From an uncultured Flavobacteriales bacterium (GTDB taxonomy: Bacteria; Bacteroidota; Bacteroidia; Flavobacteriales_G; Salibacteraceae), in the NCBI GenBank assembly GCA_943788725.1, contig CALSRJ010000001.1:186001-250000 (forward strand): 64,000 nt of DNA, written 5' to 3'. Positions 12,751 to 28,493 of the stretch are shown here, one piece after another. The notes beneath the pieces are model-generated. The model was not told the origin of the DNA. It was given only the letters and a program-made list of their open reading frames with translations, and ran no database searches. The translations under genes were made by a program, and so were the position numbers. The stretch's first letter is position 1; each line of letters opens with the position of its first letter.

Positions 12751-13218
12751 TCAGAGTTGGAAGGTGTCACCACGTTTGGTTATGTGCATGCCCTCTTTTT
12801 TTATTCGATTGCTCGCTTCACTGTGCGGAATGAAGAGTGGATTGGTGTGGTTGAGGTGAATGAAATGCACCTTCTCCTTATCCTGACTTTCCAAGGGTGA
12901 GAGGGCCGAGATCGATTCGGTCACGAAGGGGTGTGGGATCTCTATCATATTCCTGCCCGGTAATTCATCGCCATCAAAAAAAGTTCCGTCGAGCAGGACA
13001 TAGGTAGACGACTTAACAAGGTCTACGATGGAATGGCTCCAGTGTTCCCATTTGTCAATGTCGGGTATGTACACGAGCGAGGCGCCGTTGGTGGCGATGC
13101 TATAACCTACGGTTTCTGAGTATTCATCACGGTGAGGGAACGTCATGGGGGTGATGCGCACGGATTGAAGTTGCACCTCTTTGTTTTCAGAAAGTGGAAG
13201 CAACTGGATGATGTTCAA
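12751..13218 (-). pseudogene. C-terminal half of a PqqB-like MBL-fold metallo-hydrolase (5' truncated)
   Basis: The frame encodes about 155 residues, with FPHRDEYSETVGYSI, YIPDIDKWEHWSHSIVDLV, LLDGTFFDGDELPGR, IPHPFVTESI and HFIHLNHTNP, which together match the C-terminal half of Bacteroidota PqqB-like metallo-beta-lactamase-fold proteins, normally about 300 residues. The N-terminal half with the HxHxDH metal site is absent. The only start candidate is a TTG at 13218, and upstream the sequence becomes the coding strand of an unrelated T9SS tail. The protein would lack most metal ligands and is almost surely non-functional as it stands. The cause is either a deletion or a wrong join in the assembly. 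Confidence 0.8.
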
Positions 13219-22469: not shown

Positions 22470-22976
22470 ATGGGACTCCGCGACGTACGCAAAGAGCTAG
22501 AATCGCTCGAAAAGCAATCCATCATTCATCACGTTTTAGAAGTCTATAAGCGTTACCCCGCCGTCAAAGAGTATTTTGACTTCTTTGTCAACCCGGATGA
22601 GCTAGCGCTTTTAGAGGAATATAAACGTCGTGTGCATGAGGGATTTTATCCCACTCGGGGCAAGCGTCTCAAACTGTACCGATCGAGGAAGGCACTCAAC
22701 GAATTCAAGAAATTGGCCATTTCACCTGAAGCAGTAGGAGCGCTGCTGCTATACTTCACGCAAGTGGCGGTAATGTGCGGGAGGGAGAGACACGTGAAGA
22801 CAGAGGCGTTTTATACCCGCATTGAAACCAGTTTTCGCGCTGCACTGGAATACTTGGATAAAAACAACTTCCTACTTCCTTTTTCCACAGATGTGGAAGA
22901 CCTCGTTGCGCGCTGTGAGCCATTTCCATGGAATTGTCATGTGCATATGATCACGATCAAAAGCGATTTCTACTGA
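22470..22976 (+). CDS. DUF6155 family protein
   Basis: A 168-residue soluble protein. GLRDVRKELESLEKQSIIHH, LEVYKRYPAVKEYFDFFVNP and VHEGFYPTRGKRLKLYRSRK fit the DUF6155 pattern; no function is known. The frame is open 15 codons further upstream, but the ATG at 22470 gives the family N-terminus and follows a TACATTCG box by 5 nt. The next gene, an imelysin, starts 59 nt downstream. Confidence 0.75.
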   Translation: MGLRDVRKELESLEKQSIIHHVLEVYKRYPAVKEYFDFFVNPDELALLEEYKRRVHEGFYPTRGKRLKLYRSRKALNEFKKLAISPEAVGALLLYFTQVAVMCGRERHVKTEAFYTRIETSFRAALEYLDKNNFLLPFSTDVEDLVARCEPFPWNCHVHMITIKSDFY

Positions 22977-23035
22977 AGGGTACTTTTCCGTTGAATGAGA
23001 TATTCTTTATTTCTTTGATACATCAATCGATTTCC

Positions 23036-24319
23036 ATGCGGCACATCTCCATTGCTAAACTCCCTTTGATTTTTCTCTTCGTCAGCTTATTCAGCTTGAG
23101 CAGCTGTTTTGATAAAGGTTGTATAGACCCAATGGCTTCTAATTACGATCCATTGGCAGATCGAGACGACGGCAATTGCAAGTATGCTTTTGCTACGGAT
23201 GAGACCAAAGCTGCCTTCGCTGAGAATTATGCGGTAATCGCCCACGCGATGTACCAAGATGCCTATACGCAAAGTGAGGCACTGCGTGAGCTCATTTATT
23301 CATTTGTAGCGAATCCCACAATTCCGGGACTGCAAGCGTGCAAGGATGCTTGGGTCATAGCCCATATACCATACAGTCAAGCGGAGGTGCTTCAATTTCC
23401 GGGATCACCGGTAAGGTCTTCGGGTAGCGCTATACTGCAAGAGCGCATAAACGCTTGGAATTTTACGCCAGCCCATATCGATTACGTCAAGGACAGTTTA
23501 GAAGCTGGAATCATTAATCAAGTGTCAAAGTATCCACAAATCGACGCAGCGCTGTTGCAAGGGCTTAACAACACGGTGGACGGCAAGCGAATTACCCTCG
23601 GATACCATGCCATTGAATTCTTGCTTTGGGGTGAAGATAAAGATCCTGCGGACGAATTGACTGTAGGCAAGCGAACATTTAAGGATTATGACACATCTGA
23701 TACCAATGTGGTTCATGCCGCTAGACGTGGGCAATACTTAAAGCTATGTGCAGATCAACTGACCAACGACCTCGCTTCGCTCGTGAATGCTTGGTCGCCC
23801 CTGGGTGGTAGCAATTACCTCAAAACTTTTCAAGCGCACAGTGCCAAAAAACAGACCCGTCTTGCGATCACAGGATTGGTGTTGTTTGGCCAATATGAGC
23901 TTGGAGAAAACAGGTTGTTGACTACGCTTACCGGGTTAAACCCAGAACGGGAAGAATCCACCTTCAGCGATAATACGCAGCGAGATGTTTTCTTTAACAT
24001 ATTAGGGTTAAACTCCATATTTAGAGGTCGATATGGAATGTCGGATAGTACCTACATCGAAGGCGCTTCGTTGTACGATGTAATCGCCGAACAAGACTCT
24101 AGCTCCGCGAAACAACTGGATGTTCTCATGCGCAATGTGCTGAATGCGTCTAAAGAAGTCACGTCTCCTTACGACCATCAGGTGAGTTTGGAACAAGCTG
24201 CTGGGGTGGGGCCGATCACTGACTTGACGATAGCCTTAGAAGCATTTGGTGAGCGACTAACTGAGGTTGCCTCTGCGTTGAACATGGGTATTCAGAAAGA
24301 CCTCCCTTTGGACGAATAG
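23036..24319 (+). CDS. Imelysin-family (M75-like) lipoprotein
   Basis: A 427-residue periplasmic or surface lipoprotein. MRHISIAKLPLIFLFVSLFS precedes LSSC, a lipobox. Just after is a short cysteine-containing linker with core CIDPMASNYDPLADRDDGNC, a module common in Cryomorphaceae secreted proteins. The imelysin domain carries TLGYHAIEFLLWG, the GxHxxE motif of the family. Imelysins are tied to iron acquisition and have no proven peptidase activity. The start ATG at 23036 was chosen because it opens the signal peptide. The DUF3667 gene begins one or two bases after the stop, so the pair is probably one transcript. Confidence 0.88.
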   Translation: MRHISIAKLPLIFLFVSLFSLSSCFDKGCIDPMASNYDPLADRDDGNCKYAFATDETKAAFAENYAVIAHAMYQDAYTQSEALRELIYSFVANPTIPGLQACKDAWVIAHIPYSQAEVLQFPGSPVRSSGSAILQERINAWNFTPAHIDYVKDSLEAGIINQVSKYPQIDAALLQGLNNTVDGKRITLGYHAIEFLLWGEDKDPADELTVGKRTFKDYDTSDTNVVHAARRGQYLKLCADQLTNDLASLVNAWSPLGGSNYLKTFQAHSAKKQTRLAITGLVLFGQYELGENRLLTTLTGLNPEREESTFSDNTQRDVFFNILGLNSIFRGRYGMSDSTYIEGASLYDVIAEQDSSSAKQLDVLMRNVLNASKEVTSPYDHQVSLEQAAGVGPITDLTIALEAFGERLTEVASALNMGIQKDLPLDE

Positions 24320-24320
24320 C

Positions 24321-25052
24321 ATAGAATCTCGCTGTCTGAATTGTGGCGCTGAGGTTAATGGCGCATTCTGTGCACAATGCGGGCAGAAAAAAACGCTTTC
24401 TGGCATCCGATTGAGGGACGTCGTCAACGATTTCTTTTCGTATAGTTTTTCCATTGACGGTCCCGTATGGAGGACATTGCGGCTTCTGGTTCTCAATCCT
24501 GGGAAACTCTTCCATGAGTTTATAGAAGGAAGGCGGAAGAGTTACTACAAGCCCATTGAATTCTTTGTTCTGACCGCACTGATATACTTTGCATTTGCGG
24601 AGCTAATTGGCTTTGACCCATTGAAAGATCAATTTGCGGGCCCCGCTCCTGGTAGTGCCCAACCTTATATGGAACACATCAAGGAGGCGGCACAGTTCAT
24701 GGTGAAGAACGTGAACAATTTCCTATTTCTTCGAGTGTTGTCTATTGCCATTGTGCTCAAGACACTTCACTGGAAGCGACATACCCTGGCAGAGTATTTA
24801 GCTGTTGGGTTTTACATTTCCGGATTCTATTTACTGATCGGAATGTTGGACTTGGTGGGCAGTCTCTTTGAGCTCTCTTCAGGGCAATTCAAGCTTTTTC
24901 TTTTTCCGTTGTATTTTACCTATGCCTATGTTTCGTTCAGAGCGAAGCTCGCGTGGTCAACAGTTCTACTGGGGCTAATTTCCTCTATCGCCGTCTTTGT
25001 CTTCTACATGGTCATGAGTTTTGGCTTCAGTCTGTTGTGGGTGGCCTTATGA
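24321..25052 (+). CDS. DUF3667 membrane protein with zinc ribbon, unclear start codon
   Basis: About 243 residues. The N-terminus reads SRCLNCGAEVNGAFCAQCGQ, a zinc ribbon with two CxxC pairs, as is normal at the start of DUF3667 proteins; then LRDVVNDFFSYSFSIDGPVW, LNPGKLFHEFIEGRRKSYYK and several membrane helices. The coding sequence clearly includes the ribbon, yet the frame has no ATG, GTG or TTG before it: it is closed at 24279-24281, and only ATA at 24321 (right after the imelysin stop) or CTG at 24336 could begin it. A TTG at 24411 would lose the ribbon. The start is therefore either unusual, coupled to the upstream stop, or obscured by a sequence error. It converges with the broken permease, overlapping by 6 nt. 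Confidence 0.75.
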   Translation: MESRCLNCGAEVNGAFCAQCGQKKTLSGIRLRDVVNDFFSYSFSIDGPVWRTLRLLVLNPGKLFHEFIEGRRKSYYKPIEFFVLTALIYFAFAELIGFDPLKDQFAGPAPGSAQPYMEHIKEAAQFMVKNVNNFLFLRVLSIAIVLKTLHWKRHTLAEYLAVGFYISGFYLLIGMLDLVGSLFELSSGQFKLFLFPLYFTYAYVSFRAKLAWSTVLLGLISSIAVFVFYMVMSFGFSLLWVAL

Positions 25053-25547
25053 AGATGTCTTACTGTAGCTTCGGATAGCAATGAAGTTAAATCCAATTAC
25101 GAACAATACAACGACGGCAAAATGTCCTCGGATGTCTGTCCAACCACTCCCTTTGAGCATGACCATGCGCATCACTTCAACAAAGTATTTGATCGGATTG
25201 AAAAGGTTGATTCCTTTTGCCCAAACCGGAATATTGTCAGCCGGAGTGAACAGTCCGCTCAAGAGCAAGAAAATAACCAAGAAGAACCAGGTGATGAACA
25301 TGGCCTGCTGTTGGGTCTCGGTAACCGTGCTGATCAAGATGCCAAACCCTAGGATGGCCACCAGGTAAATCGACACAAACCCAAAGAGAAGGAGCGTACT
25401 ACCTGCAGTTGATATTCCGAAAAGCACATTAGCGACCACCAGTCCGAAGCCCATCAGGACCATGCCAATAATCCAAAACGGAATGATCTTGCCCAGTATG
25501 AACTCAAATTTGGTGAAAGTCGAATTCGTGATCCCGTAGTGCGGCAT
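25047..25547 (-). pseudogene. C-terminal part of a YhhJ/ABC-2 type permease, joined out of frame
   Basis: From about TKFEFILGKIIPFWIIGMVL onward the frame is the C-terminal 155 residues of an ABC-2 (YhhJ-like) permease: five or six membrane spans, FGILISTVTETQQQAMF, FLLLSGLFTPADNIPVWAK and FNPIKYFVEVMRMVMLKGSG. The normal protein has about 370 residues with a large periplasmic loop after TM1; that part is missing. The frame begins with MPHYGITNS, which is out-of-frame sequence of the neighbouring permease. It cannot make a working permease alone. Confidence 0.8.
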
Positions 25548-25776
25548 TATTAAAGAATGCCGCTGCGATCAGGAGTCCTAGTAGGGTTAAGATGAATGTA
25601 TAGTTGGCGAGAATGTGCGGTGCATTCTTGTGCACGTTGCCGACCGTCCCACCGATGATGACATTGTCGCTTGAAACAGCGCCAAACACCATGAGGGCCA
25701 TCATGAAAAAAAAGATGTAGACCATGGGCTGGCGAAAGCCGCGCCTCAATTCTTGCAGGTAGAATTCTTGAAACAT
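25504..25776 (-). pseudogene. N-terminal part of an ABC permease/M1-peptidase fusion protein, truncated
   Basis: Ninety residues: MFQEFYLQELRRGFRQPMVY, FFMMALMVFGAVSSDNVIIG, HKNAPHILANYTFILTLLGL and FNNAALRDHEFDFH match the beginning of the roughly 1,200-residue Bacteroidota ABC-2 permease fused to an M1 aminopeptidase. A stop follows at the point where the sequence switches to another permease (around 25515-25525). Its ATPase partner, just upstream, is intact. The rest of this gene is absent from the window, so this is either a real deletion or a misjoined assembly. Confidence 0.8.
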
Positions 25777-25785
25777 AGGTGTGGC

Positions 25786-26667
25786 TTAAGCGGTTGCGGT
25801 GGCTTGTGTCTTGGTAAAGAAGACGTCCTCAAGGTTCGGTTTCACTTGTTCGAATTCGGAATCGGGTTGCGCATCGCTCAGCACGTGGATCTGTGGCTTT
25901 CCGGCTACCATCTTATCTGAGATGACCGTATAATTCCTTTTGTATCGCTCCATTTGGTCGCGTTCAATCGAGGTATGCCACACCTTTCCCTCTAAAGCTT
26001 GTAGTGCAATTTGAGGGGAACCATTGTAGACGATTTGACCTTCGTTCATGATGGCCATTTCGGTGCAAAGTTCTCGCACGTCATCTACAATATGAGTGGA
26101 AAGGATCACAATAACTTCTTGTCCCACATCCGCCAATAGGTTGTGAAAACGATTGCGCTCTCCAGGATCAAGTCCAGCAGTAGGTTCGTCTACGATGATC
26201 AGCTTTGGGTCGCCAATTAAGGCTTGAGCAATGCCTACCCGCTGTTTCATGCCGCCACTGAAGCCTTTTACGCTTTTCTTGCGAACGTCATAGAGGTTGA
26301 CTTTTTGCAAGAGATGAGCGACAAGGTCTTTCCGCTGACCTCGATGAGAAACTCCTTTCAACACTGCAATGTGATCTAACATCTGTTCCGCAGTAAAGCG
26401 AGGGTACACTCCAAATTCTTGTGGAAGGTAGCCCAGCACTTTTCTAAGCTCTGCGGGTTCCTCAACAATGTCTAACTCATCTAAAAAGACAGAACCGGCG
26501 TCGGCCTCTTGAAGAGTAGCAATGGTGCGCATAAGCGAGGATTTACCGGCTCCATTGGGGCCGAGCAGTCCAAACATACCGTTCGAGATCTCAAGTGAAA
26601 CATCATCAAGCGCCTTCACGCCGTTGGCGTAGGTCTTGTTCAATCCTTTGATGGAAAGTGTAGGCAT
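25786..26667 (-). CDS. ABC transporter ATP-binding protein
   Basis: A 293-residue ATPase. Walker A LLGPNGAGKSSLMRTIATL, Q-loop LPQEFGVYPRFT, signature FSGGMKQRVGIAQAL, Walker B KLIIVDEPTAGLD and the H-loop ILSTHIVDDVRELC are complete. The C-terminal extension (KVWHTSIERDQMERYKRNYT to LEDVFF) resembles the ATPases that partner permease/M1-peptidase fusions, which fits the fragment 9 nt downstream. The frame is open to 26775, but the ATG at 26667 (MPTLSIKGLNKTY) is the natural start and has its own promoter. With its permease broken, it may have no working partner. Confidence 0.92.
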   Translation of the reverse strand: MPTLSIKGLNKTYANGVKALDDVSLEISNGMFGLLGPNGAGKSSLMRTIATLQEADAGSVFLDELDIVEEPAELRKVLGYLPQEFGVYPRFTAEQMLDHIAVLKGVSHRGQRKDLVAHLLQKVNLYDVRKKSVKGFSGGMKQRVGIAQALIGDPKLIIVDEPTAGLDPGERNRFHNLLADVGQEVIVILSTHIVDDVRELCTEMAIMNEGQIVYNGSPQIALQALEGKVWHTSIERDQMERYKRNYTVISDKMVAGKPQIHVLSDAQPDSEFEQVKPNLEDVFFTKTQATATA

Positions 26668-26682
26668 AACGTCGGTTTTAAT

Positions 26683-26713
26683 CAAAACTAAACTATGCCG
26701 TTGGTCGGAGCAA
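26683..26713 (-). promoter_or_regulatory. Promoter of the ABC transporter operon
   Basis: Minus strand: TTG (26711-26713), 20-nt spacer, TAGTTTTG (26683-26690), with the ATG at 26667 after 15 nt. Confidence 0.65.
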
Positions 26714-26811
26714 AGAACGATTTTGTTACAAACGGTGGGATATCCAACTTGGAAGGGAAATGGTATGAGCAACACGTCTTAATGTACATTAGGACTTTCG
26801 TTTTCCTCAAC

Positions 26812-26864: not shown

Positions 26865-28493
26865 TTATCCCAAGAAGGGATATCGGTAATCGGTCGGTGT
26901 AACAAAGGTCTCCTTGATTGTCCGAGGGCTGACCCATCGGATCAAGTTCCACTGTGATCCGGCCTTGTCGTTTGTTCCAGAGCCACGCGCACCACCAAAC
27001 GGCTGCTGGTTTACCACTGCGCCGGTCGGCTTGTCGTTGATGTAGAAGTTTCCTGCCGCATCTGAAAGCTTTTTGCAAGCCAAGTCGATCGCGTAACGAT
27101 CACCAGAGAAAATACTGCCCGTCAATGCGTATGGTGAGGTCTCATTGAGCAAGTCCATGGTCTCTTCGAACTTGTCATCCTCATAAACGTAAATCGTCAT
27201 TACAGGGCCAAAGATCTCTTCTTCCAAGGTGCGGAAGTGTGGATTTGATGTCACAACAACGGTAGGCTCGATGAAGTAACCCTTGCTGTCGTCATAGTTT
27301 CCTCCAACGATGATTTCTGCATCGCTTTGCTCCTTCACATAATCGATGTAGCTGCTGATCTTATCGAACGCTGGTTTGTCGATCACCGCATTGACAAAGT
27401 TGCTCGCATCGCGTGGCGTGCCCATTTTGAAAGACTTCACATCGGCAATCACATTCGCCCTTACTTCAGACCACATACTAGAAGGAATGTAAGCGCGTGA
27501 AGCCGCAGAACATTTCTGCCCCTGGAACTCAAACGCACCCCTAGAAATGGCCGTAGACACTTCCTTGCGACCTGCGCTCGGGTGCACCATGATGAAGTCC
27601 TTGCCGCCAGTTTCTCCGACAATGCGAGGATACGAGCGGTAGTTGCTGATGTTATTTCCTATCTCTTTCCACAGGTGCTGGAAAACGGCAGTAGATCCGG
27701 TAAAATGCAATCCAGCGAAATCTTTGTGTTTGAATACCACATCGCCGGCAACTGGTCCTTCTACTGAAATCAAATTGATCACGCCATCTGGTAGGCCGGC
27801 AGCCTTGAACAAATCCATTACGACTTGAGCAGAATACATCTGACTTTCTGCTGGCTTCCAAACCACGGTATTTCCCATCATAGCTGCAGAAGCTGGAAGA
27901 TTGGCCGCAATAGAAGTAAAGTTGAACGGAGAAATTGCGAAGACAAAACCTTCCAATGGACGGTACTCCATGCGATTCCATATACCCGGTTGTGAGTCAG
28001 GTTGATCGCTGTAGATCTCCTGCATGTAGTGGACATTGAAGCGAAAGAAGTCGATCATTTCACAAGCAGCATCAATTTCCGCTTGAAAAACGTTCTTGGA
28101 TTGAGCCAACATGGTAGCGGCATTCATACGGTCGCGGAAAGGACCTGCCAGGAGCTCTGCGGCCTTCATAAAGATACTAGCGCGGTGTTCCCAAGGCAAA
28201 GCGGCCCACTTATCTTTAGCTGCCATGGCCGCATCAATTGCGGCAGTTACGTGAGATGCATCACCGTAATTGAAGTGTCCTAAGACTTTAGCATGCTCAT
28301 GCGGTGGAGACATGGGGCGTTTATCATTCGTACGGACCTCTTCACCACCAATGTACATTGGCATATCGATCGGGGCTTGGTTGTACATTTCATCATACGT
28401 AGCCATCAAAGTGGCTAATTCTGAACTACCTGGTGCAAAACTGCCCACGGGCTCATTGTCAGGATAAGGGATCTGATAAATTCCTTTTGGCAT
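26865..28493 (-). CDS. pruA: L-glutamate gamma-semialdehyde dehydrogenase (1-pyrroline-5-carboxylate dehydrogenase)
   Basis: A 542-residue aldehyde dehydrogenase that oxidises glutamate semialdehyde to glutamate in proline and arginine catabolism. FAISPFNFTSIAANLPASAA and NTVVWKPAESQ (NAD binding), VGETGGKDF with the general-base Glu, and GQKCSAASRAY with the catalytic Cys, are all present; the N-terminus NEPVGSFAPGSSE is typical of the single-domain P5CDH of Bacteroidota. It lies 69 nt after the 3-hydroxyacyl-CoA dehydrogenase gene on the same strand and is followed by its own terminator at 26812-26844. Confidence 0.96.
   Translation of the reverse strand: MPKGIYQIPYPDNEPVGSFAPGSSELATLMATYDEMYNQAPIDMPMYIGGEEVRTNDKRPMSPPHEHAKVLGHFNYGDASHVTAAIDAAMAAKDKWAALPWEHRASIFMKAAELLAGPFRDRMNAATMLAQSKNVFQAEIDAACEMIDFFRFNVHYMQEIYSDQPDSQPGIWNRMEYRPLEGFVFAISPFNFTSIAANLPASAAMMGNTVVWKPAESQMYSAQVVMDLFKAAGLPDGVINLISVEGPVAGDVVFKHKDFAGLHFTGSTAVFQHLWKEIGNNISNYRSYPRIVGETGGKDFIMVHPSAGRKEVSTAISRGAFEFQGQKCSAASRAYIPSSMWSEVRANVIADVKSFKMGTPRDASNFVNAVIDKPAFDKISSYIDYVKEQSDAEIIVGGNYDDSKGYFIEPTVVVTSNPHFRTLEEEIFGPVMTIYVYEDDKFEETMDLLNETSPYALTGSIFSGDRYAIDLACKKLSDAAGNFYINDKPTGAVVNQQPFGGARGSGTNDKAGSQWNLIRWVSPRTIKETFVTPTDYRYPFLG

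Follow-up and report, generated by a model that had tools for sequence, protein, structure and literature searches.

The two overlapping minus-strand reading frames at 25047-25776 of the window, the stretch of 64,000 nucleotides from an uncultured Flavobacteriales bacterium analyzed here, are very probably a fresh chimeric pseudogene left behind by an ordinary 10.46-kb deletion at a short homology. Comparison with another genome of the same genus (G008) reveals both parental genes, the colinear surroundings, the size of the loss, and the junction itself; the scar has presumably lost its function. The original prediction had interpreted the frames as the start of an ABC permease/M1-aminopeptidase fusion joined out of frame to the C-terminus of another ABC-2 permease, and both of these parents are intact in G008.

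The chimeric frames and the undeleted locus

The 5' part of the chimera (25504..25776, minus strand) is a 90-aa frame running from 25776 to 25504 that matches the beginning of a G008 open frame of 1215 aa at 96% identity. That open frame corresponds to a gene of 1193 aa with a Pfam Peptidase_M1 domain at residues 867-1077. The 88 residues originally assigned to the fusion were therefore right to within two. The frame is closed by a minus-strand stop at 25506-25504, located at the join. Only 90 of the ~1193 residues are kept; about 1100, including the peptidase domain, are gone from the window, and the remnant has no Pfam match and lacks the M1 domain that characterizes permease/M1-peptidase fusions. 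We take ABC permease/M1-aminopeptidase fusion to be the appropriate family name, judging by the domains seen.

The 3' part (25047..25547, minus strand, about 155 of 370 codons) comes from a gene for an ABC-2 permease of the YbhR/YhhJ/RbbA-C-terminus type. Residues 9-166 of the 166-aa frame at 25547-25047 are 94% identical to the C-terminus of a 370-aa ABC-2 permease of G008 and match the second halves of PF01061 and PF12698, and the initial ~10 codons are an out-of-frame reading of the fusion gene. Where a YbhFSR/RbbA-type exporter would have full-length permeases and ATPases, what the window retains is ~155 codons from the C-terminal end of a single permease. The two remnants sit in different reading frames, which is the frame break of a deletion-derived chimeric pseudogene, and internal stops are absent from both ahead of the join or the natural end.

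In G008 the fusion (1193 aa) and the ABC-2 permease (370 aa) are both whole and lie on one strand of contig C17, 10.46 kb apart and at the same chromosomal place, in agreement with the proposal that genes of the same orientation were joined by a deletion of several kb. The intact operon for which a comparison with a related genome had been suggested is found between them. Its order is the breakpoint-cut permease of 370 aa, a second permease (369 aa), two ATPases (247 and 306 aa), HlyD (305 aa), TolC/OEP (433 aa), TetR (229 aa), a LiaF-like gene on the opposite strand (260 aa), and the fusion, which is cut by the other breakpoint and followed by its own ATPase. Pfam places ABC2_membrane_3 in both permeases. 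The best NCBIfam match is RbbA for both permeases and the 247-aa ATPase and DrrA for the 306-aa ATPase, all under the curated cut-offs, and we read the deleted operon, from its sequence, as encoding a putative YbhGFSR/RbbA-like tripartite exporter.

The window aligns with G008 along a single colinear path of six blocks with 82.6-85.2% DNA identity and two large breaks, at which the window is missing 6,839 bp (at 13207-13218) and 10,460 bp (at 25505-25516). Lesser differences consist of 742 bp (a DUF3667 gene) in the window versus 108 bp in G008, and 72 bp in the window versus 466 bp (a DoxX-like gene) in G008. The DUF3667 gene, at 24411-25052, is not present at the corresponding place in G008; there is a 6-base overlap between its end and that of the chimera remnant. 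On the left, the join is flanked by an imelysin-family gene (22928..24319, plus strand; PF09375) and on the right by an aldehyde dehydrogenase gene (26865..28493, minus strand), which we presume to be PruA-like; both are colinear with G008, and the dehydrogenase has a strong match in all 13 genus genomes.

An intact ABC ATPase gene (25786..26775, minus strand; ABC_tran, PF00005) has a 299-aa ortholog in G008 and adjoins the intact fusion both there and in a second relative, G003. It was once the neighbor, and probably the partner, of the M1-fusion permease. The original prediction held that an intact ATPase upstream had been deprived of its partner, and the ATPase has indeed lost the fusion that it adjoined, so that the deletion appears to have left it partnerless. 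Its dN/dS is inside the range of its neighbors and gives no sign of decay yet.

Junction homology

At the deletion junction (25505..25516) the blastn blocks overlap by 12 bases, which align, imperfectly, with both parental breakpoints. The word CACCAAATTT, previously pointed out near the join on the minus strand as possible microhomology, is present there. As a control, 1500 pairs of places lying 6.8 or 10.5 kb from each other in the genome of the window were joined artificially, and the products were put through an identical alignment to G008. An overlap of at least 12 occurred in 11 of the 1498 scorable joins, compared with 12 at each of the two real joins, at 25.5 and 13.2 kb. A cruder test using G008 only yielded P = 0.12 for the best score at the 25.5-kb join, which is not significant, and P = 0.014 at the 13.2-kb join; for the longest exact run the values were P = 0.71 and P = 0.07, respectively. 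A weaker outcome may be expected of a test in which the ancestor is represented by G008, with one difference in every six bases. The proposed microhomology is thus favored over chance by the artificial joins and not by the best score of the G008-only test.

We propose that a single 10.46-kb deletion at an imperfect direct homology of ~8-12 bases would have joined codon ~90 of the permease/M1-peptidase fusion out of frame to codon ~216 of the ABC-2 permease. Such an event would have removed the rest of the TetR-TolC-HlyD-ATPase-ATPase-permease-permease exporter operon, the LiaF-like gene, and the peptidase domain, and it could have proceeded by RecA-independent short-homology joining or by replication slippage.

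Recombination driven by homology between the two permeases was also considered and rejected. The breakpoint positions in the two proteins are nearly equivalent, but their profile alignment does not reach significance and no similarity of the DNA around the breakpoints is visible outside the junction; we regard the equivalence as chance.

Fate of the lost DNA and the history of the site

The lost 10,460 bp have no DNA match in the seven contigs of the window's own genome (G000). An empty DNA search, lacking a known-positive genome, is inconclusive by itself; the same kind of search, performed with junction DNA against the 13 genus genomes, did recover DNA with 77-86% identity. Among the genes of the lost operon, protein searches across the genus covered TolC and the fusion, and a DNA search of G000 covered the rest. 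The protein search of G000 yielded no match to the TolC gene, and for the fusion it gave residues 1-94 only, together with one weak match of the peptidase part to another peptidase. The C-terminus of the 370-aa permease has one protein match in G000, the remnant itself. By DNA, and for TolC and the fusion by protein, the lost segment is accordingly not found elsewhere in the genome, which is rated 99.07% complete, and relocation of the operon within the genome was rejected on the same searches.

The genus comparison covered 13 genomes including G000. The fusion is present at full length in two of them (G008 and G003) and as residues 1-94 in the window's genome; the other matches are weak and concern the peptidase part. 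The TolC gene is full length in G008 alone, with one weak match in G004. The neighborhood of the PruA-like gene was examined in nine further genomes, leaving out G002 and G009, where this gene is at a contig end. In G003 an imelysin gene, the fusion, the ATPase, and a distant LiaF-like gene lie ahead of the PruA-like gene. In G011, G007, and G005, the spacing between the imelysin gene and the PruA-like gene is 1.8, 0.6, and 0.08 kb, respectively, and none of the queries from the insert matched there. What was recognized in G004, G006, G010, and G012 was the PruA-like gene and its other neighbor only; in G001 the PruA-like gene was recognized along with an imelysin gene at a distance. We read the history of the site as a gain followed by a loss in the window's lineage.

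A relative carrying the same chimera with both frames conserved, which would have contradicted the original prediction, was not found among the 13 genomes: a search with 221 bp of junction DNA detected the join in one of them, the window's own. A chimera common to the relatives was rejected, as G008 matches this DNA only at the two parental places.

Age of the proposed deletion

The ratio dN/dS was obtained from Nei-Gojobori counts. The fusion remnant (86 codons) has dN 0.025 and dS 1.2, and the permease remnant (155 codons) dN 0.026 and dS 1.5. With dN/dS ~0.02, both are inside the range of 13 intact window genes (dN 0.003-0.078, dS 0.7-2.2), and no decay of the chimeric frames is seen by this measure. 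Because both remnants fall within the range of their intact neighbors, the deletion is probably recent, as far as can be judged from substitutions, and a recent deletion would explain why the two halves still read well. If the whole dN of these remnants were neutral, the neutral period would be at most ~3-4% of the branch, a rough figure with dS near saturation. The remnant of an MBL-fold gene at the 13.2-kb join has dN 0.088 and dS 1.35, and its dN/dS of ~0.065 is the highest of the 14 rows compared.

The good state of the remnants could also mean that the overlapping frames are still useful, as a short 6-TM-like permease made by recoding at the join or as the C-terminal half of a permease with a translation start of its own, in either case working with the intact ATPase. 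The uninterrupted frames would fit this idea, as would their summed length, comparable to a short ABC-2 permease, and the position of the join near equivalent sites in both permeases (80-113 against 199-232 in the alignment), although that alignment is not significant (probability 0.3%, E 0.19). We consider this very improbable. The join occurs in only one of the 13 genus genomes, it breaks the reading frame and meets a stop at once, the match never reaches the first five residues of the query among 80 of the 157 loci found, and the lack of decay is explained by the recency of the deletion. More speculatively still, the join might lie in the loop that precedes membrane span three in both permeases and yield a new short chimeric permease, made at a low level via recoding or re-initiation and served by the intact ATPase. 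To this we give hardly any credence; if true, it would be a transporter born by deletion, at one stroke.

The second join and the possibility of an artefact

A second deletion junction, separate from the chimera, is located at 13207..13218, where the blastn blocks also overlap by 12 bases and 6.84 kb are lost relative to G008. It is the same kind of event as the join at 25.5 kb. The loss comprises a 1284-aa type IX secreted protein with SprB repeats, a 366-aa PorP/SprF protein, and the greater part of a 525-aa PDZ protein, and the MBL-fold gene at this join is cut down from 304 aa to a 155-aa frame.

Other differences are found to the right of the window. At G000:C1:296023-297129, 46 kb away, a 368-aa frame stands where G008 has 4.49 kb more (frames of 913, 405, and 535 aa); this is perhaps a further gene-joining deletion. 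At G000:C1:276603-276607, 27 kb away, 837 bp of G008 are missing with a 5-base block overlap, and a 379-aa frame of G008 corresponds to a 311-aa frame in G000. Over the sampled region G000:C1:83324-307374, the segments present only in G008:C17 are many (14.3, 10.5, 6.8, 4.6, 4.5, and 1.3 kb, and smaller), whereas those present only in G000 are few and shorter, the largest being 742 bp. The imbalance suggests a deletion bias in the window's lineage or gains in G008.

The original prediction took the second join to raise the chance of an assembly artefact, and this was its weaker part. An artefact would mean that the organism does have the operon, which was collapsed through a misjoin, a mixture of populations, or chimera formation during amplification. 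Two joins with an identical overlap only 12 kb apart lend it some weight, amplification chimeras also use short homology, and remnants without decay are what an artefact would show as well. Several of the matched records are MAGs, and the window's genome may therefore be one; five of the 12 sampled differences between G000 and G008, both joins included, cut into G008 genes. The deletion reading itself has against it that the homology is imperfect with G008 as the ancestor and that the species is represented by one assembly. Nevertheless, an artefact is unlikely. The lost DNA has no match in a nearly complete genome, the surroundings of both joins are colinear with G008, the other seven differences lie at gene ends or close to them, the pattern to be expected of real gain and loss, and the dN/dS of the 13.2-kb remnant hints at some decay there. 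Moreover, ~12 bases of imperfect homology are far under the usual assembly word lengths and would not normally mislead an assembler.

Discussion

With its size, content, and boundaries established against G008, a suspicious join is settled as a probable recent gene loss. Together with the loss of a 6.84-kb SprB/PorP-SprF-type cluster 12 kb away, it illustrates on a small scale the loss of accessory genes, for transport and for the cell surface, in Flavobacteriales. Short-homology deletions would be the route of both losses, and no new mechanistic question is opened by them.

In recA mutants of Deinococcus, deletions at repeats of 4-11 bp have been documented and likened to alternative end-joining in E. 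coli (PMC8149714). The large deletions at short direct repeats in D. radiodurans recA mutants, and in E. coli as cited there, resemble the present one in their kilobase scale and short direct homologies; they differ in that the present deletion, which comes from no known mutant background, is deduced from a relative at ~83% DNA identity, so that its repeat is approximate (PMC8149714).

With respect to proteins that fuse an ABC permease to an M1 aminopeptidase and have an adjacent ATPase, a family for which a literature search by annotation words returned no paper, the window is alike in the first ~90 residues and in the ATPase, and unlike in that the remainder of the ~1193 residues has disappeared together with the peptidase domain. 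The deleted operon invites a comparison with YbhFSR of E. coli, which has YbhG as its adaptor and a regulator of the TetR type. The E. coli system is an exporter of tetracyclines and ethidium (PMC7190983). The G008 operon is similar to YbhFSR and to RbbA/YhhJ in combining an HlyD adaptor, ABC ATPases, two ABC-2 permeases, and a TetR-family regulator, and it is similar to RbbA in the best NCBIfam matches of both permeases and the 247-aa ATPase, at scores below the curated cut-offs. In contrast to both YbhFSR and RbbA, it has two separate ATPase genes, the 306-aa one being nearest to DrrA, and a TolC gene within the operon.
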